A stretch of 40,243 nucleotides of DNA from Jiangella anatolica (GTDB lineage Bacteria > Actinomycetota > Actinomycetes > Jiangellales > Jiangellaceae): contig NZ_POTW01000060.1 of assembly GCF_003236295.1 (NCBI RefSeq), positions 1-40,243 of the forward strand, written 5' to 3'. The notes under the pieces are model-generated. The model was given only the letters and a program-made list of their open reading frames with translations, did not search any database and was not told the DNA's origin. This document shows positions 7,722 to 25,546 of the stretch, in pieces. The stretch's first letter is position 1, and the number at the start of each line of letters is the position of its first letter. The position numbers were made by a program, and so were the translations under genes.

Positions 7722-8474
7722 TCAGGACGAGCGGCGCATCGCCCTCGTCCCCACGGCCAGCCCGAGGACCGCGACGACGACCGCGGCGACGACGGCGGAC
7801 AGCACGGTCGACGCGGGGAACTCTCCGTTGAAGAGGGCACGTTCGGCGTCGACGACATAGGTCAGCGGGTTCGCGGCGGACAGCGCGCGCAGCCAGCCGG
7901 GACCGTCGTCGACCGGGAGCAGGATGCCGGCCAGCAGCAGCACCGGGAACAGCACCGTCTGCTGGACCGTCCAGAACAGCCACTCGGTGTCCTTCGACGC
8001 CAGCGCCAGCGTGTACGACAGCGCGCCCAGCCCCACGGCCATCACGGCGAGGATCGCCACGCCGAGGAGCACGCCGAGGACGTGCAGGTCGAAGCCGAAC
8101 GGGACGCACACCAGCACGATGATCGCGGTCTGCACGATCATCGGGACGATCTCCTTCAGCGCCCGCCCGACGATCAGCGCCGGCCGCCGCAGGGGTGTCA
8201 CCAGCATCCGCTCGTGCGCGCCGGTCTGGATCTCGAACAGCAGGTTCGACCCGGTGAACGCCGTGCTGAACAGGCATGACATCACCACGATGCCGGGAAC
8301 GAACCACTGCAGCGCGGACCCGCCCTCGACGTCGGGCAGCAGCGGCGCGAACAGTCCGAGGAAGACCAGCGGCTGGATCATGGAGAACACGACCGAGAAC
8401 GGGTCGCGCAGGACCGGCCGCAGCTCGCGGCTGAAGACGGTGACGGTGTCGGTGATCATGGTCGTGCTGCTCAT
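7722..8474 (-). CDS. ABC-2 type exporter permease (DrrB-like)
   Basis: This 250-aa integral membrane protein has about six hydrophobic segments and matches the ABC-2/DrrB permease pattern: a cytoplasmic N-terminal helix (FSRELRPVLRDPFSVVFSMIQPLVFLGLF), the GAHERMLVTPLRRPALIVGRALKEIV region after TM2, and the ANPLTYVVDAERALFNGEF segment before the last helix. It should form the membrane channel for the ATPase encoded just upstream; ATG overlaps that gene's TGA (ATGA at 8471-8474). DrrAB-type pairs export hydrophobic compounds, often antibiotics. No biosynthetic genes for such a compound are present in the window, so self-resistance is not implied. Confidence 0.9.
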   Translation of the reverse strand: MSSTTMITDTVTVFSRELRPVLRDPFSVVFSMIQPLVFLGLFAPLLPDVEGGSALQWFVPGIVVMSCLFSTAFTGSNLLFEIQTGAHERMLVTPLRRPALIVGRALKEIVPMIVQTAIIVLVCVPFGFDLHVLGVLLGVAILAVMAVGLGALSYTLALASKDTEWLFWTVQQTVLFPVLLLAGILLPVDDGPGWLRALSAANPLTYVVDAERALFNGEFPASTVLSAVVAAVVVAVLGLAVGTRAMRRSS

Positions 8475-9463
8475 GCCGCGATCTCCTCGCTCGACGGGGT
8501 GACGACGCCCTCGCGCAGGCTGCGCCCGGTGAGGTTGAGGAAGACGTCGTCCAGGGTGGGCCGGTTGACGGCGGTGGACTCGACGGCGATGCCGGCGGCG
8601 TCCAGGTCGCGGAGGATCCCGGGGACCAGTCGCGGACCGCCGGCGACCCGCACCTCGACGGTCGCGCCGCCGGCCGAGACCGTCGCGCCGGACAGCGACG
8701 ACAGCCGCGCGGCCGCGGCGCCCGCGTCGGAGGCGGAGCCGAAGCCGAGCGTGATCAGGTCGCCCGCGTGCTCGGCCTTGAGCCTGGCCGGGGTGTCGTC
8801 GGCGATCACGGTGCCGTGATCGATGACGATGACCCGCTCGGCCATCGCGTCGGCCTCGTCGAGGTAGTGCGTCGTCAGCACGATCGTCGTGCCGTGCTCG
8901 GCGCGCAGCTTGAGGATGTGCTCCTGCAGGTTGGCCCGGTTCTGCGGGTCCAGCCCGGTGGACGGCTCGTCGAGGAACAGCAGCTGCGGGGCGTGGATGA
9001 GGCCCATCGCGATGTCCAGCCGCCGTTTCTGCCCGCCCGACAGCGACGACACCGGCCGGTCGGCGACGGCGGCGAGGTCCAGCGACGCGACCAGCTCGTC
9101 GGCCCGCGCCTTGGCGTCGCGCCCGGTCAGGCCGTACGCCCGGCCCTGGCTGACCAGTTCGTCGCGGCCGCGCTGGGCGTGCGCCGCGCCGTTGCCCTGG
9201 CCGATGTAGCCGATGACGCGGCGCACGTCGCGCTGCTGGGCGATGACGTCGTAGCCGGCGACGCTCGCGGTGCCCGAGGTGGGCGGGATCAGCGTCGTCA
9301 GCATGCGCAGCGTCGTGGACTTTCCGGCGCCGTTCGGGCCGAGCAGGGCGACGAGCTCGCCCTCCGCGACGTGCAGGTCGAGCCCGCGTACGGCCTCAAC
9401 CACGTCCTTCTTCACGGTGAAGTGCCTGGTGAGGCCGGTGGTCTGGATCATGGTGGCGTTCAT
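8471..9463 (-). CDS. ABC exporter ATP-binding protein (DrrA-like)
   Basis: The 330-aa product has Walker A GPNGAGKST, signature LSGGQKRRLDIA, Walker B LLFLDEPSTGLD, a switch histidine (VLTTHYLDEAD) and a C-terminal extension ending PTLDDVFLNLTGRSLRE, which is the DrrA C-terminal motif. It energises the DrrB-like permease encoded downstream (4-bp overlap). ATG at 9463 is preferred because TAGCGT (9471-9476) ends 7 nt before it. A longer in-frame version from GTG at 9493 is possible, since it has GAGG 7 nt upstream and would add ten residues, but the family begins near IQTTGLTRHF. It is divergent from the WYL regulator, the obvious candidate controller. Confidence 0.9.
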   Translation of the reverse strand: MNATMIQTTGLTRHFTVKKDVVEAVRGLDLHVAEGELVALLGPNGAGKSTTLRMLTTLIPPTSGTASVAGYDVIAQQRDVRRVIGYIGQGNGAAHAQRGRDELVSQGRAYGLTGRDAKARADELVASLDLAAVADRPVSSLSGGQKRRLDIAMGLIHAPQLLFLDEPSTGLDPQNRANLQEHILKLRAEHGTTIVLTTHYLDEADAMAERVIVIDHGTVIADDTPARLKAEHAGDLITLGFGSASDAGAAAARLSSLSGATVSAGGATVEVRVAGGPRLVPGILRDLDAAGIAVESTAVNRPTLDDVFLNLTGRSLREGVVTPSSEEIAA

Positions 9464-9470
9464 GGGAACC

Positions 9471-9519
9471 ACGCTAGAATCCATTCCGGCCACTTTCTGA
9501 CCTCAATTGCGAGGACTCT
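9471..9519. promoter_or_regulatory. Divergent promoter/operator region between the ABC exporter and WYL regulator
   Basis: TAGCGT on the minus strand (9471-9476) lies 7 nt before the ATPase ATG. GACTCT on the plus strand (9514-9519) lies 6 nt before the WYL ATG. The intervening 37 bp contain GGCC-N7-GACC (9488-9502). The region from hexamer to hexamer is 49 bp, the same as in the 28072-28120 region beside the second WYL gene. Confidence 0.45.
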
Positions 9520-9525
9520 GAAGAC

Positions 9526-10476
9526 ATGGCGAACACGAGTGCTCGGATGCTCCGGCTGCTGTCCCTGCTGCAGACGCATCGGTACTGGCCGGGGGAGGAG
9601 CTGGCGGACCGGCTCGGGGTCAGCCCGCGCACGCTGCGCCGCGACGTCGACCGGCTGCGCGAGCTCGGCTACCCGGTCGACGCGGCGCGCGGCGTCTCCG
9701 GCGGCTACCAGCTGCAGGCCGGCGCCGCGCTGCCGCCGCTGCTGCTCGACGACGAAGAGGCGGTGGCCATCGCGGTCAGCCTGCGCACGGCCGCCGGTGG
9801 GGCCGTCAGCGGCATCGAGGAGACATCGGTGCGGGCGCTGGCCAAGGTGGTCCAGGTGCTGCCGCCGCGGTTGCGCCGCCGGGTCGACGCGCTGCACACG
9901 TACACCGTGCCGTCGTTGCCCGGCGGCGGGCCGAGGGTCGACTCCGGCGCGCTCACCGTCATCGCGCAGGCCTGCCGCGACGACGAGCGGCTGCGGTTCC
10001 GGTACACGTCGCGCGACGGCGAGGCCACCGGCCGGCTGGTCGAGCCGTACCGGCTCGTGTCGCGCGGGCGCCGCTGGTACCTCGTCGCCTGGGACGTCGA
10101 GCGGCACGACTGGCGCACGTTCCGGGTCGACCGGCTGACCGACCCGGTCGCGACCGGCGCCCGGTTCCGGCCGCGGGAGCTGCCGGCCGCCGACGCCGCG
10201 ACGTTCGTGCACGAGCGGCTGGCCGCCGTGCCGACCCGCTACCGCGTCGTCGTCGACGTGCAGGTGTCGGCCGCCGAGGTCGCGGCGCAGGTGGCGGGCT
10301 GGGGGACGGTCGAGCCGGCCGGTGCCGCGTCCTGCCGGCTCACCATGAACGTCGACACCCTGGACTGGCCGGCCTTCCTGCTGGGCTCCATCGGCGCCGA
10401 GTTCGACGTCGTCGAGCCGGCCGAGCTCGGCGACTACCTGCGGACGATGGGCGGGTTGTTCCTCCGATCGGCCTGA
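9526..10476 (+). CDS. WYL-domain transcriptional regulator (YafY-like)
   Basis: This 316-aa protein has an N-terminal helix-turn-helix (MLRLLSLLQTHRYWPGEELADRLGVSPRTLRRDVDRLRELGY, about residues 8-50), a linker with LLLDDEEAVAIAVSLR, and a WYL domain (about 145-225: RLRFRYTSRDG, RLVEPYRLVSRGRRWYLVAWD, WRTFRVDRL). The C-terminal WCX-type extension is about residues 235-305. WYL domains bind ligands, probably nucleic acids or small molecules, and tune transcription. It diverges from the DrrAB exporter genes and likely controls them. It is clearly paralogous to the regulator at 28128-29273, and both share promoter layout. The start is supported by GACTCT 6 nt upstream rather than by a strong Shine-Dalgarno. 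Confidence 0.9.
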   Translation: MANTSARMLRLLSLLQTHRYWPGEELADRLGVSPRTLRRDVDRLRELGYPVDAARGVSGGYQLQAGAALPPLLLDDEEAVAIAVSLRTAAGGAVSGIEETSVRALAKVVQVLPPRLRRRVDALHTYTVPSLPGGGPRVDSGALTVIAQACRDDERLRFRYTSRDGEATGRLVEPYRLVSRGRRWYLVAWDVERHDWRTFRVDRLTDPVATGARFRPRELPAADAATFVHERLAAVPTRYRVVVDVQVSAAEVAAQVAGWGTVEPAGAASCRLTMNVDTLDWPAFLLGSIGAEFDVVEPAELGDYLRTMGGLFLRSA

Positions 10477-10532
10477 TCCGGTCCAAACGGTTGAAACCCG
10501 GTGGATCGGCGGACGCCGGCCGGGCGGACGGC

Positions 10533-10538
10533 GAGAAT
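10533..10538 (+). promoter_or_regulatory. Putative leaderless -10 element (GAGAAT)
   Basis: GAGAAT ends 7 nt before the ATG at 10546. There is no Shine-Dalgarno for that start. It supports 10546 over the upstream in-frame starts at 10501 and 10537. Confidence 0.3.
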
Positions 10539-10545
10539 GGTCGTC

Positions 10546-11460
10546 ATGTCTCGCCTGAGCGCCCCCACGCGAGTCCCGGCCGGCACGCAGGTCGTGGTGC
10601 ACGGCACCCCGGCCGACGACGCCTTGCCGGGCGCCGGTCGCGGTCTCGCCGGTCGCGTCGTCCGCGAAGCCGGCGGCACGTACAGCGTCGCGCTGGTCGA
10701 CGGACAGCTGGTCGACGCCGCGCCCGACCAGCTGGTCACGCTCGCCGACCCGCCGTCCGAGCTGCCCGAGCCGGTGCGCTCCGGAGGGGCCGACGATCTG
10801 GTGGTGGCTCGCACGATGTACGCGGCCGCCGTCGGCCGGCCGCCCGCCGACCCCGGCGGCCAGCTCACGGTGCGCGCTGTCTTCCAGGCGCCGACGGCCG
10901 CGTTCTGGTCGCTGCGCAAGCCGCCCGAGCAGGTCACCGGGCCGGGCCCGGCCTGGCTGTCGTGGGAGGTCGAGCACTTCTGCCGGCAGGCCCTCGATGC
11001 CGACCCGGTCTGCCTGGAGCTCCTGTGGTCGCCGCGGCGGGTGTGGGTCAGCGACGTCGGCCGCGAGCTGCTGGACCTGCGTCCGGCGTTCCTCTCGCAG
11101 ACCATCTCCGCCGCCTACGCCGACCACGTGCTGGCCGGCTTCACCCGGCTGGCCGGCGACGGCCACCCCGACGACGAGCAGGCCGGCGCCGCGGCGGACC
11201 TGCTGCGGCTGCTGCTCGACGGACAGGCGCTGCTGCGCACGGGCGACGTCGGCATCGTGGACGACGAGCACCACGAGCGGCTGGCCGCCGTCCGGTCCGG
11301 CGCGCTGGCCTGGGACGACGTCGACGCCTACCGGCTGGAGCTGCAGCAGCAGCTGGACGAGGCGGCGGCCGTGTCGTACCTGTCACCCGGTCCGGACATC
11401 GGGCGGGTCGACGCCTGGCTCAGCGACCTGCGCCGTCGCGATCTCGACGTAACCTCCTAG
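10546..11460 (+). CDS. RlaP/COG3541-like predicted nucleotidyltransferase relative, catalytic motif apparently lost
   Basis: The product is 304 aa. Residues 1-65 form a small beta domain (VPAGTQVVVHG, GLAGRVVREAGGTYSVALVDGQLV), like a KOW/SH3 barrel. The rest follows the predicted nucleotidyltransferase family related to RlaP: AFWSLRKPPEQV, SWEVEHFCRQALDADPVCLELLWSP, GRELLDLRPAFLSQTISAAYADHVLAGF, AADLLRLLLDGQALLRTG, and a final helix. Family members normally carry G-S-x-x-(Y/H)-G....SD(I/V)D before the FWSL segment. Here that region reads ARTMYAAAVGRPPADPGGQLTVRAV, with no acidic pair, so the metal-binding aspartates seem replaced and activity is doubtful. The family call rests on pattern memory. 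It could now serve a regulatory or binding role. Confidence 0.6.
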   Translation: MSRLSAPTRVPAGTQVVVHGTPADDALPGAGRGLAGRVVREAGGTYSVALVDGQLVDAAPDQLVTLADPPSELPEPVRSGGADDLVVARTMYAAAVGRPPADPGGQLTVRAVFQAPTAAFWSLRKPPEQVTGPGPAWLSWEVEHFCRQALDADPVCLELLWSPRRVWVSDVGRELLDLRPAFLSQTISAAYADHVLAGFTRLAGDGHPDDEQAGAAADLLRLLLDGQALLRTGDVGIVDDEHHERLAAVRSGALAWDDVDAYRLELQQQLDEAAAVSYLSPGPDIGRVDAWLSDLRRRDLDVTS

Positions 11461-21225: not shown

Positions 21226-22104
21226 TCAGGCTCCTCGAGATTCGGCCACCCGGCGCATCCAGTACCGGAACCAGCTGTCGCCGTACGGCGCGTAGATCCG
21301 CACCGGCACGCCCCGCGCGACCAGCGCGTGGGCGTCGTCCTCGCGGACGCCCAGCAGCAGCTCGACCCCGGCGCCCGGCACCGTCGCCAGCAGCGCCTCG
21401 CGCAGCACCGGGTCGTGCGTCGCCAGCACGGGCGCCGACCCGCCCGCGTGCACCTGATGGGCCAGGCGGACGAACGCGACGGTGGCCGGCTCGCCCCACG
21501 CGTGCGCGACGTCGGCGGACTCCAGATAGGCGCCCTTGACCAGCCGGACCGGCACGCCGGCGGCGAGCAGCCGCTCGACGTCGCCGGGGCTGCGGCGCAA
21601 GTTCGCCTGGACGGTCGCCATGACCGGCGCGCCCGCCTCGGCCAGCGCGACGGTGAGGTCCATGATCTGCGGCGTGCGCCGGCTCTCCTCGGCGCTGATC
21701 TCCAGCCGCGAGCCCGCCGGCAGGAACTCGACCAGCTGCTCCACGTGCCGGCGGCACACGTCCAGGCCGAGGTCCAGGCCCAGGTGCGACGGCACGATCT
21801 CCAGGTTCACGTCGCCGTCGACATCGGCCAGCGCGGCGGCCGCGGCGCGGTAGCCGCGCACCGTCCGCGTCACCGCCTCCTCGTCGGCCGCGCCCTCACC
21901 GAACAGGTCGAGGCTGACCCCCAGGCCGGCGCCGGTCAGCCGGCGGACGGTCTCGATCGCGTCGTCGAGGGTGACGCCGGCGACGTAACGCCGGGCGGCG
22001 GAGTACGCGAGGTCCCGGGCCGGCGGGATCGCACGGACGACGGACTCGACCTCGGAGCTGGTGGCCAGCGCGTAGAGCGCCCGGCGGGTGAGCGATGCGA
22101 TCAC
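21226..22104 (-). CDS. Proline dehydrogenase
   Basis: This 292-aa monofunctional PRODH has the FAD-binding TIM-barrel motifs: ASLTRRALYALATSSE near the start, RRYVAGVTLDDAIETVRRL, LDLFGEGAADEEAV, LEISAEESRRT.QIMDL, ATVQANLRRSPGDVERLL, VRLVKGAYLES, LATHDPVLREAL and the C-terminal VPVRIYAPYGDSWFRYWMRRVAESR that contacts proline and FAD. It oxidises L-proline to pyrroline-5-carboxylate at the membrane or in the cytosol. The usual partner, P5C dehydrogenase, is not in the window. The start is GTG at 22104, two bases after the TGA of a 36-aa upstream ORF, implying translational coupling; there is no Shine-Dalgarno of its own. Confidence 0.9.
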   Translation of the reverse strand: MIASLTRRALYALATSSEVESVVRAIPPARDLAYSAARRYVAGVTLDDAIETVRRLTGAGLGVSLDLFGEGAADEEAVTRTVRGYRAAAAALADVDGDVNLEIVPSHLGLDLGLDVCRRHVEQLVEFLPAGSRLEISAEESRRTPQIMDLTVALAEAGAPVMATVQANLRRSPGDVERLLAAGVPVRLVKGAYLESADVAHAWGEPATVAFVRLAHQVHAGGSAPVLATHDPVLREALLATVPGAGVELLLGVREDDAHALVARGVPVRIYAPYGDSWFRYWMRRVAESRGA

Positions 22105-22106
22105 GA

Positions 22107-22217
22107 TCAGAGCTTGAGGAGGAGGCCCGCGAGCACCGACGCGTACCCGACGCACAGCGCGACGACCGCGATGACGGCGACGGTGTCGCGCCGACCCGGT
22201 GGCGATGGCTGGAACAC
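22107..22217 (-). CDS. Predicted 36-aa single-pass membrane peptide upstream of proline dehydrogenase
   Basis: On the minus strand, GGAGG followed by six bases and GTG at 22217 opens a 36-codon frame. It begins VFQPSPPGRRD, continues into one hydrophobic helix (TVAVIAVVALCVGYASVLAG) and ends LLLKL with TGA at 22107-22109. Two bases later is the proline dehydrogenase GTG. The clean ribosome binding site, the positive-inside N-terminus, the single transmembrane helix and the tight coupling support a real gene. It might help membrane association of PRODH or merely couple its translation. No homologue is recognised, and conservation in relatives would decide. Confidence 0.5.
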   Translation of the reverse strand: MFQPSPPGRRDTVAVIAVVALCVGYASVLAGLLLKL

Positions 22218-22273: not shown

Positions 22274-22897
22274 TCAGGGCGCGATGAGCCCCGTGGTCTT
22301 CGACCGGGCCGCCTCGAACCGCGCGGCGACGTCCGGCCAGTTCACGATGTTCCAGAACGCCGCCACGTAGTCGGGCTTCACGTTCTTGTACTGCAGGTAG
22401 AACGCGTGCTCCCACATGTCCAGCATGAGCAGCGGGACGGTGCCGGCGGCGAGGTTGCCCTGGTGGTCGTAGAGCTGCTCGATGACCAGTCGCTGGCCCA
22501 GGCTCTCCCACGCCAGGATGGACCAGCCCGAGCCCTGGATGCCCAGCGCGGCGGCGGTGTAGTGCGCGCGGAAGCCGTCGAAGGAGCCGAAGAACTCGTC
22601 CACCGCGGCGCCCAGCTCACCGTCGGGCTTGTCGCCGCCCTCGGGCGACATGTTGTTCCAGAAGACGGTGTGGTTGACGTGGCCGGCGAGGTTGAAGGCC
22701 AGGTTCTTCTGCAGCTGGTTGACGGTGCCGAGGCTGTTGTTGGCGCGCGCCTCCTCGAGCTGCTCGAGGGCGGTGTTCGTGCCGGCGACGTACGCCTGGT
22801 GATGCTTGGAGTGGTGCAACTCCATGATCTGACCGGCGATGTGCGGCTCGAGCGCACCGTAGTCGTAGGGGAGATCCGGCAGAGAATAGTCGGCCAT
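22274..22897 (-). CDS. Superoxide dismutase (Fe/Mn family)
   Basis: This 207-aa cytosolic enzyme has all four metal ligands visible: the first His of [13 protein letters not shown] (His28), the second His of [17 protein letters not shown], and Asp/His of [23 protein letters not shown] and the C-terminal [19 protein letters not shown] are also typical. It dismutates superoxide to H2O2 and O2. Mn versus Fe use cannot be settled by eye, though GPx- and Bcp-type peroxidases nearby in the window could remove the product. The start ATG at 22897 is preceded by GAGAGGAAG at a rather long spacing. A TAGGTT hexamer at 22949-22954 may be its -10 and is embedded in an IdeR-like half-site. Confidence 0.95.
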
Positions 22898-23009: not shown

Positions 23010-23660
23010 TCACGGTGCGACGTCCGGTTCGGACAGGGTGATCCGGATCGCCCGGAACGCCTCCGGGGTCGCCCGGAGGACGGCCAGCTTCGGGTCCGGC
23101 ACGGCCAGGTGCTGACGGGTCGCGGCGGCCAGGGCCGCCAGCGCGGCGAGCCGGCGATCGGCCAGCACGTGGTCGGCGGCGGACCGGTCGCCACCGGTCA
23201 CGACGGCGTCCAGCTCGCCCGCGTGCGGCAGCAGCACCCGCGCCGCGACGTCGGCGGCGGCCTCGAACGCCTCGCGGGCCTGCTTCTCGCGGCGACGGGC
23301 GAACCGCTGCTGCGACTGCCCGCCGGCCGCCGTCCGTCCCTGCACGTGCCGCGATCCCACCTTCGAGGCCACCAGCCGGGCACCGTCGAACACACCGGCC
23401 GCGTAGCCGCCGCGGCGCACCAGGAGCACGCCGACCCAGCGGTCGCGGGCGGCGTGCGCGAGCAGTCCGCCGTACGCCTCTGTCTCGTCCGGCCGCAACG
23501 GCGGGAATGGGACGGCGCAGCTCGCGACGGCGCCGTCAGCGGCGGTGACCACGACGGCCTCCGGCCCGGCCCGGTGCGTGGTGGCGCCGTGCCGGCGGGC
23601 GAAGCCGGTCAGCCAGGCCTCCAGCCGCTCGGGCGGGATGCTCAGCAGGCGTTCGGGCAT
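23010..23660 (-). CDS. acVLRF1-family peptidyl-tRNA hydrolase (bacterial Vms1/ANKZF1-like)
   Basis: The 216-aa protein shows the VLRF1 core: VGVLLVRRGGYAAGVFDG, ARLVASKVGSRHVQGRTAAGG, then SQQRFARRREKQAREAFEAAADVAARVL. The GGQSQQ segment (residues 113-118, GxxQ = Gly114-Gln117) corresponds to the catalytic loop that in eukaryotic Vms1/ANKZF1 cleaves peptidyl-tRNA on stalled 60S subunits. Actinobacterial members are named acVLRF1 and are thought to release stalled nascent chains in ribosome quality control; direct evidence in bacteria is limited as far as I know. ATG at 23660 begins the conserved MPERLLSIPPERLEAWL; CATCCT lies six bases upstream and there is no Shine-Dalgarno. A strong inverted repeat lies 40-100 bp upstream. 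Confidence 0.85.
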   Translation of the reverse strand: MPERLLSIPPERLEAWLTGFARRHGATTHRAGPEAVVVTAADGAVASCAVPFPPLRPDETEAYGGLLAHAARDRWVGVLLVRRGGYAAGVFDGARLVASKVGSRHVQGRTAAGGQSQQRFARRREKQAREAFEAAADVAARVLLPHAGELDAVVTGGDRSAADHVLADRRLAALAALAAATRQHLAVPDPKLAVLRATPEAFRAIRITLSEPDVAP

Positions 23661-24027: not shown

Positions 24028-24534
24028 TCAGCGGGCGGCCCGATCGGCCAGCCGGCGGGCCACCGTCACATAGCGACGGGTGGCGGCGCCCTGGACGGCG
24101 CGCGCGAGGGGGCCGCCGAGCCGGGCATACCACGCGGCCGCCCGGCTGAACGCCGTCACCGTGAACCAGACGTCGTCGCGCTCGTCCAGTTCGGCGACGA
24201 AGGACTCTTCACCGCGCTCGGGGTGGCCGGGCAGCGTGCCGTACGCGAACCCGGATCGGCGGTCCTCGTCGAGCACCCAGACCACCTCGCAGGGGATCCG
24301 CAGCAGCCCGGCCAGCGAGCTGGTGACCCGGACGCCGGCGGCGGCCCGCGGCTGCGACGTCGTGACGCGCAGGCCGAGGCCGCGCTGCACGCCGAACGTG
24401 AGGATGCCGTCGGCGACCGCCAGGAAGGCGGCTCGGCCGTGGCCGATCCGGCGGCGGACCCGCACGTGGTGGTAGCCGGACGGCAGCGCGGCGCCGTCGC
24501 GGGTGGCGCCGACCTCGGGGTAGGTGAAGGACAT
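24028..24534 (-). CDS. DUF1990 family protein
   Basis: The 168-aa product matches DUF1990: MSFTYPEVGATRDGAALPSGYHHVRVRRRIGHGRAAFLAVADGIL at the start, AGVRVTSSLAGLLRIPCEVVWVLDEDRRSGFAYGTLPGHPERGEESF in the middle, and a C-terminal helix RRYVTVARRLADRA. These compact beta-rich proteins resemble START/SRPBCC folds and may bind a hydrophobic ligand; no function is established. ATG at 24534 is used because the upstream in-frame GTG at 24552 lies inside the -35 element of the divergent sigma factor. CAGAGT ends 8 nt before this ATG. Divergence from the ECF41 gene makes it a candidate member of that regulon. Confidence 0.8.
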   Translation of the reverse strand: MSFTYPEVGATRDGAALPSGYHHVRVRRRIGHGRAAFLAVADGILTFGVQRGLGLRVTTSQPRAAAGVRVTSSLAGLLRIPCEVVWVLDEDRRSGFAYGTLPGHPERGEESFVAELDERDDVWFTVTAFSRAAAWYARLGGPLARAVQGAATRRYVTVARRLADRAAR

Positions 24535-24546
24535 CACGCGCGACTC

Positions 24547-24573
24547 TGTCACAACCGCGGCCCGGTGCGTGTC
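24547..24573 (+). promoter_or_regulatory. ECF41-type promoter (TGTCACA ... TGTC)
   Basis: TGTCACA at 24547-24553 equals the -35 motif described for ECF41 sigma factor targets. After 16 bp, TGTC at 24570-24573 approximates the reported CGTC -10. It points at the ECF41 gene starting at 24614, so the gene is probably autoregulated. Confidence 0.6.
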
Positions 24574-24613
24574 TGAAGGTCATGCCTACACTGCGCGAGG
24601 AGGTGTCCGCACC

Positions 24614-25546
24614 ATGACGCAGGACGTGTTCCAGCGGCACCGCGGCCTGCTCTTCACCGTCGCCTACGAGATGCTCGGCAGCGTCGCCGACGCCGAGGAC
24701 GTCGTGCAGGACACCTGGCTGCGCTGGTCCGCCGACGACCGCTCCGACGTCGCCGAGCCGAAGGCCTACCTCGTCCGGATCGCGACCCGGCTGGCGCTGA
24801 ACCGCCTGCGCACGCTGCGCACCCGGCGCGAGACCTACGTCGGGCCATGGCTGCCCGAGCCGCTGCTCACCGGACCGGACGCGGCCGGCGGCGTCGAGCT
24901 GGCCGAGGACGTCTCGATGGCGATGCTGGTGGTCATGGAGACGCTGACGCCGATCGAGCGGGCGGTGTTCGTGCTGCGCGAGGTGTTCGGCTTCCCGTAC
25001 ACGGAGATCGCGGCGGCGCTGGAGCGCGGCGAACCGGCGGTGCGGCAGGTCGCGCACCGGGCCCGCGAGCACGTCCAGGCCCGCCGGCCGCGGTTCGACA
25101 CCGACCCCGAGCAGCGTCGCGCCGTCACCGAGCGGTTCCTGCGGGCCACCGCCGAGGGCGACCTCGCGGCGCTGATGGAGGTGCTCGCGCCCGACGTCGT
25201 CATGGTGAACGACACCGGCGGCAAGGCGCGCGCGGCCCGGCGCCCCGTCATCGGCGCGGACAACGTCGGCCGGTTCCTGTGCGGCCTGGTCGCACGCGGC
25301 GAGATGGAGGGCTACCGGTTCGAGTACGCCGAGCTGAACGGCGCACCGGGCGTGGTCGGCTGGCTCGGCGGGCGCCTGGACGTGGCCGCCATCGTCGAGA
25401 CCGAGAACGGCCGCGTGGCGCGGCTGCTGGCGTTCCGGAACCCTGATCGGCTCACCGGGGTGAACCGCGTCCCGCTCCGGCCGGCCGGCATGGCGGATAT
25501 TGACACACCCGATGCCGGGCGGCCGGAAACCGAGACGTTTCGGTGA
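24614..25546 (+). CDS. ECF41-family sigma factor with SnoaL-like C-terminal domain (SigJ-like)
   Basis: This 310-aa protein has sigma-2 (about residues 5-75, AEDVVQDTWLRW) and sigma-4 (about 105-165, LTPIERAVFVLREVFGFPYTEIA...GEPAVRQVAHRARE) regions, joined by WLPEPLLTG (79-87). A SnoaL/NTF2-like domain follows that replaces a separate anti-sigma factor. The ECF41 hallmark motifs are present in slightly changed form: DTGGK for DGGGK and NPDRL for NPDKL. In this group the C-terminal domain modulates activity and RNA polymerase binding. ATG at 24614 has GAGGAGG ten bases upstream, and an ECF41 promoter precedes it. The usual ECF41 neighbour (a COE-type carboxymuconolactone decarboxylase, oxidoreductase or epimerase) is not seen; a DUF1990 gene is divergent instead. 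Confidence 0.92.
   Translation: MTQDVFQRHRGLLFTVAYEMLGSVADAEDVVQDTWLRWSADDRSDVAEPKAYLVRIATRLALNRLRTLRTRRETYVGPWLPEPLLTGPDAAGGVELAEDVSMAMLVVMETLTPIERAVFVLREVFGFPYTEIAAALERGEPAVRQVAHRAREHVQARRPRFDTDPEQRRAVTERFLRATAEGDLAALMEVLAPDVVMVNDTGGKARAARRPVIGADNVGRFLCGLVARGEMEGYRFEYAELNGAPGVVGWLGGRLDVAAIVETENGRVARLLAFRNPDRLTGVNRVPLRPAGMADIDTPDAGRPETETFR

Follow-up and report, generated by a model that had tools for sequence, protein, structure and literature searches.

What kind of protein is a Vms1-like ribosome-rescue factor in a bacterium, how might it free a nascent chain, and with which partners? We addressed these questions for an open reading frame within a 40,243-nucleotide stretch of the Jiangella anatolica genome (the window), which a preliminary description had assigned to the acVLRF1 proteins and portrayed as standing alone. 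The coding sequence (23010..23660, minus strand) begins with ATG and can be translated without interruption from 23660 to 23010 into 216 amino acids. Its product passes both curated HMM cut-offs, with 267.9 bits against NF041024 (NCBIfam, acVLRF1 family peptidyl-tRNA hydrolase; cut-off 125) and 153.3 bits against PF18859 (Pfam acVLRF1; cut-off 27.1), which upholds that assignment. Further Pfam matches are to baeRF_family10 (89.7 bits) and eRF1_2 (27.0 bits, cut-off 27.1), and the closest named relatives, at 78-84 % identity, come from Jiangella species. In common with the described acVLRF1 family (PF18859, NF041024; Burroughs and Aravind 2019) the protein has a GGxSQ motif, conserved arginines in the next helix and a short N-terminal extension, while the stop-codon-binding and Pelota domains are absent according to Pfam, the structural model and fold searches. 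Judged by these features the gene truly belongs to this already described family.

A sigma-70 promoter scan around the gene yielded no promoter-like site and a terminator scan yielded one terminator-like site, on the opposite strand, against 0.5 expected, both scans being uninformative in a high-GC actinomycete. Viral contigs, searched with one protein query able to reach close relatives only, gave no relative; of 11 pattern matches none was confirmed. Two unusual homologs were observed. The acVLRF1 frame at L099:5368-6657 (genome G139) is 430 amino acids long, running ~210 residues past the usual end, and possibly carries a C-terminal extension or fusion. The other, 58 % identical to the protein of the window, is encoded on a 4.4-kb MAG contig labelled Candidatus Dormibacteraeota (L178) and reflects either spread outside Actinomycetota or misbinning.

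An AlphaFold2 model built from 39 sequences (mean pLDDT 96.5, pTM 0.90) predicts the architecture of an eRF1 middle domain with an N-terminal extension, the core occupying residues ~73-210 (23031..23444, minus strand) and the extension, which falls outside the eRF1 match, residues 1-71 (23448..23660, minus strand). In Foldseek searches aRF1 was the best match (E 6e-07); Vms1 (6r84) reached E 2.9e-04 and Balon (Rv2629) E 7e-04. VIA-align gave Z scores of 13-14 over residues 72-204 for the best eRF1-type chains, 8.7-10.4 for Balon chains on the core and 10.5 for yeast Vms1 (6r84_R; rmsd 4.4 Å over 170 residues spanning 8-211), so that the comparison with Vms1 called for earlier returns a predicted fold of the eRF1/Vms1 type. 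Among the 50 VIA-align matches listed, only the four Vms1 entries reach into the N-terminal extension past its last two residues; searched by itself, the N-terminal segment of ~72 residues (model 94.2) gave no Foldseek match at E ≤ 0.001 and no Z ≥ 5.

Alignment places the catalytic-loop motif at G113-G114-Q115-S116-Q117 (23310..23324, minus strand, codons 23324-23310), in agreement with a GxxQ earlier positioned at Gly114-Gln117; the string AGG-SQQRF is present, and the residue missing from its previous quotation is Q115. Passages of PMC6514570 describe the acVLRF1 motif as GGxSQ with conserved arginines in the following helix. To compare members of the family we assembled 116 distinct loci, excluding the window, from 40 family-diverse loci of the 95 acVLRF1-encoding genomes described below and the best 80 of at least 569 named-genome matches, less 4 duplicates; the named-genome loci are weighted to Streptosporangiaceae and Kribbella and the counts represent non-independent events. 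G113, G114, S116, Q117, R119, R122, R123, R124 and Q127 are invariant in all 116 loci, and the same nine positions are also invariant in 41 aligned proteins. Residue 115 is W in 86 loci, Q in 22, S in 6 and R in 2, and the "GGQ" visible in the window (GGQSQ) is by this alignment a minority state for the family. As position 117 is invariant while position 115 is variable and is the one that aligns with the GGQ glutamine of two archaeal aRF1 chains, Q117 is the constrained glutamine, two residues past the GGQ position.

The distribution of the family was determined with NF041024 instead of PF18859, which we rejected as a census tool. In a draw across the phylum 75 of 396 genomes pass the PF18859 cut-off, with only 6 places above 130 bits and the others below 74, and a weak hit checked further, in the J. 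anatolica genome itself, proved to be a baeRF_family2 protein. This protein of 362 amino acids (L002:1144-2229, contig C195) has Balon Rv2629 as its sole strong PDB match (E 5e-18), and because it also matches PF18859 weakly, censuses made with that profile can be inflated. The NF041024 cut-off is passed in 95 of 296 genomes drawn evenly from the class, representing 24 family-level groups. The preliminary description had proposed to examine co-occurrence with RqcH (PF05833), but no RqcH exceeds the cut-off in any of the 296 class genomes and the J. anatolica genome has no match at E 0.001. Sub-threshold PF05833 matches occur in 16 of the 296, all inside profile positions 161-259. Among 14 control genomes 11 give matches and 10 pass the cut-off, and we rejected an RqcH partnership for the class on this comparison (0/296 versus 10/14); one of the 11 matching controls is Corynebacterium glutamicum, a member of the class studied. 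HflX was found in 38 of 39 acVLRF1 genomes examined from the 95, and its presence in all 14 controls as well makes it non-discriminating, showing simply that a splitter is available. ArfB exceeds its cut-off in 202 of the 296 class genomes, that of J. anatolica included, and by hand count in 82 of 95 acVLRF1 genomes versus 119 of 201 others, a positive association that is uncorrected for kinship; the hand count gives 95 genomes lacking ArfB where the cut-off gives 94. We had entertained acVLRF1 as an ArfB substitute and rejected this, ArfB being commoner in acVLRF1 genomes.

From the family to which the protein belongs we infer a function in ribosome rescue. In the model that we judge probable, acVLRF1, a single eRF1-middle-domain protein, would enter the A-site where peptidyl-tRNA is still held, on a large subunit or a stalled ribosome, and there Gln117 of the GGxSQ loop would free the nascent chain. 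Release would take place downstream of a splitter such as HflX, and without Ala-tailing, as RqcH was not found in these bacteria. The location of the gene between SUF and ABC-F genes in many relatives further leads us to propose that acVLRF1 may be made in response to oxidative or iron-sulfur stress, possibly acting with the neighbouring ABC-F. Ribosome binding, catalysis and the 50S-peptidyl-tRNA substrate are inferred, as are a partnership with ABC-F and the part given to HflX. Apart from the non-discriminating presence of HflX and the uneven ABC-F linkage described below, two considerations weigh against the model. Among 39 members baeRF_family10 (39/39) and eRF1_2 (34/39) match better by sequence than the bVLRF1 profile PF18826, which matches a single member at E 0.07. 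A dedicated release factor is also not strictly needed, since ArfB is present in most acVLRF1 genomes and ordinary Pth is reported, in a passage of PMC11317155, to perform RQC release in B. subtilis.

Within the window no translation gene adjoins acVLRF1, as had been stated before. A neighbour scan identified an Fe/Mn superoxide dismutase (sodA; 22274..22897, minus strand) as the next gene downstream across a gap of 112 bp, a proline dehydrogenase further downstream on the same strand as acVLRF1 (21226-22155, minus strand), a DUF1990 gene upstream (24028..24552, minus strand) and a sigma factor of the sigma-70 family that carries a SnoaL-like domain (24524-25546, plus strand). The DUF1990 frame and that of the sigma factor, on opposite strands, share 29 bases where their starts were called mechanically. 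In 11 other loci, too, sodA follows acVLRF1 on its strand: 4 from the same family group (f1) and 6 from Jiangella/Phytoactinopolyspora, together all 10 distinct loci inspected from this family, and 1 MAG. DUF1990 precedes acVLRF1 on that strand in 10 of the 11, the exception being L106, where it was not seen. The further claim that genome context offers no partner stands for the window and for the inspected loci of its own family, but not for 8 other family-level groups in which an ABC-F gene lies downstream on the same strand, nor for the SUF genes that are often upstream in other acVLRF1 loci. In J. anatolica itself ABC-F (contig C233) is unlinked to acVLRF1 (contig C213).

SUF genes are upstream in 40 of the 116 loci, on the same strand in every case, and an ABC-F gene, recognised by at least 55 % identity to the copy in L062, is nearby in 46, of which 45 have it downstream on the same strand. 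Both neighbours were seen in 24 loci, ABC-F only in 22, SUF only in 16 and neither in 54 within the available flanks; where both flanks reach 9.5 kb or more (52 loci), ABC-F occurs in 26, SUF in 23 and at least one of them in 37. The examples of SUF genes were identified with Pfam, by specific domains for SufB, SufU and SufT and by general families alone for SufC and SufS. The aligned end of SufT is less than 100 bp from acVLRF1 in 11 loci, and the ABC-F start within 500 bp of it in 24. Linkage was also assessed across whole genomes. An ABC-F position was among the matches listed (to ~E 1e-252) for 79 of the 95 acVLRF1 genomes, the remaining 16 having none, and in 39 of the 79, from 8 family-level groups, the two genes lie within 16 kb of each other with ABC-F downstream on the same strand in all 39, 10 of them within 500 bp. 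In the other 40 the two were not seen within 20 kb, 35 being on separate contigs of draft assemblies, for which the distance is unproven, and 5 far apart on one contig. ABC-F as such was matched in 284 of the 296 genomes irrespective of acVLRF1. In Sphaerisporangium melleum (L158) ABC-F (7986-9581) and acVLRF1 (10001-10684) are adjacent but divergent, 420 bp apart, in contrast to the collinear arrangement of other loci; an inversion seems to have occurred without separating the pair. Among the best matches listed in a literature search, titles and abstract openings gave no report on a SUF/acVLRF1/ABC-F neighbourhood, and the name "acVLRF1" was unmatched.

The neighbouring ABC-F matches YheS, PoxtA, EttA and Arb1 in the PDB, and 3 of 5 copies scanned pass NCBIfam ribo_prot_ABC_F. 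The Arb1 chain that it matches sits with Vms1 in entry 6r84, although Arb1 (E 5.6e-53) is not its closest match, YheS reaching 1.3e-84. In passages of PMC9953336 Arb1, an ABCF protein in the E-site, is said to stimulate cleavage by A-site Vms1, and for this reason an ABC-F gene adjoining a Vms1-like gene is suggestive of a partnership. By analogy, the order SUF-acVLRF1-ABC-F, which appears to be an old gene block in many relatives, suggests an ABC-F partner. The leading alternative, to which we give a little short of an even chance, is that SUF and ABC-F represent mere inherited gene order, with acVLRF1 a generic standalone rescue factor that has no dedicated partners; bacterial VLRF-1s are indeed presented as standalone and separate from other RQC components in passages of PMC6514570, and the 54 loci with neither neighbour agree with this. 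In genomes lacking acVLRF1, SUF is upstream of ABC-F in 5 of 13 stretches inspected around ABC-F, with SufT-ABC-F gaps of ~55-65 bp in two, and because SUF and ABC-F are thus linked in some lineages without acVLRF1, the latter may simply live between its neighbours. One acVLRF1-lacking group of large genomes (f3) showed no SUF by ABC-F in 5 of 5, and L194 was too short upstream. Against mere inheritance, Streptosporangiaceae-type loci keep acVLRF1 and ABC-F adjacent (24 loci at ≤ 500 bp), with SUF 4-10 kb off or not seen, the divergent L158 pair looks as if it had been retained through inversion, and the closeness of SufT in the 11 loci mentioned above is consistent with co-transcription. The placement beside SUF in many lineages and beside sodA in Jiangellaceae would fit ribosome rescue under oxidative stress. 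Judged by gene order, the neighbouring ABC-F may be the ortholog of OcrA. Parts of PMC9045647 name iron limitation, nitrosative stress, oxidative stress and antibiotics as inducers of the suf genes in M. tuberculosis, and knock-down of the M. tuberculosis ABC-F Rv1473/OcrA sensitises to linezolid in the account given in parts of PMC9159947 (see also PMC13041422).

A second alternative concerns chemistry and not partners. Vms1 is described as tRNA-cleaving in passages of PMC11317155 and PMC9953336, and acVLRF1 might likewise be an endonuclease of the Vms1/ANKZF1 kind that cuts the CCA end of P-site peptidyl-tRNA and leaves the ester bond alone, as the presence of W at the position of the aRF1 GGQ glutamine in 86 of 116 loci, where the canonical glutamine is not kept, would allow. 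We consider this unlikely. The di-glycine is kept in 116 of 116 loci, compared with the eukaryotic motif GxuQ, for which the authors, in passages of PMC6514570, argue for hydrolysis, and the helix after the loop resembles that of aRF1. The loop aligns without gaps to the two archaeal aRF1 chains compared, by sequence alone, which suggests a length equal to that of aRF1, counter to the longer loop of the VLRF1 clade. The aRF1/eRF1 middle domain is also the top fold match, and it differs from acVLRF1 in being accompanied by stop-codon and Pelota domains and in that the fixed glutamine of acVLRF1 is residue 117 and not that of the GGQ position. The retained di-glycine favours hydrolysis; the frequent absence of the GGQ glutamine, on the other hand, leaves room for CCA cleavage.

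How closely acVLRF1 can be equated with Vms1/ANKZF1 (eVLRF1) depends on what is compared. The sequence tie is weak, a profile search of the PDB returning no Vms1 chain at E up to 10. In structure the two align over residues 8-211, and the work of Vms1 with Arb1 is paralleled by the adjoining ABC-F gene in many acVLRF1 loci. Unlike Vms1/ANKZF1, acVLRF1 keeps the di-glycine, is only 216 amino acids long and lacks the zinc-finger, ankyrin and VIM segments that passages of PMC6514570 attribute to its eukaryotic counterparts, and its class, over 296 genomes, has no RqcH above the cut-off. A full counterpart of the Vms1-Arb1 system, in which an E-site ABC-F would position the peptidyl-tRNA on a split 50S subunit for release of the chain by A-site acVLRF1, tailing and Rqc2/RqcH both being absent, encoded in a SUF/superoxide-stress locus, is a doubtful extension of the preferred model; if true, the release step of RQC would predate the tailing module or be independent of it.

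That acVLRF1 is instead a non-catalytic, Balon-like hibernation or stress factor blocking the A-site is improbable: Balon chains do match its core, a Balon relative is encoded in the same genome and stress-gene neighbours would fit dormancy, but the loop glutamine and its flanking glycines are invariant, unlike in the glutamine-lacking baeRF families, and the 216 amino acids compare with ~360 for Balon chains, the further domains of which are missing. Balon and the baeRF-1 families share the superfamily core with acVLRF1, and all 39 members match baeRF_family10; most baeRF families lack the catalytic glutamine, family 10 excepted, in passages of PMC6514570, and the absence of a conserved loop glutamine that marks the Balon type does not apply to acVLRF1, with Q117 present in 116 of 116 loci.

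To the existing description of the family these data add the finding that no genome drawn from the class has RqcH above the cut-off, a fixed Q117 beside a variable residue 115, and a recurrent SUF-acVLRF1-ABC-F order that corrects the picture of a gene standing alone and proposes a partner. acVLRF1 is a candidate release factor in a class without RqcH hits, for which the conserved gene order points to candidate partners in ABC-F and perhaps HflX, and to oxidative or iron-sulfur stress as the setting in which it may act. The natural variation among W, Q, S and R at the GGQ position alongside an invariant Q117 would offer a handle on the dispute over whether the VLRF1 clade are hydrolases or nucleases.
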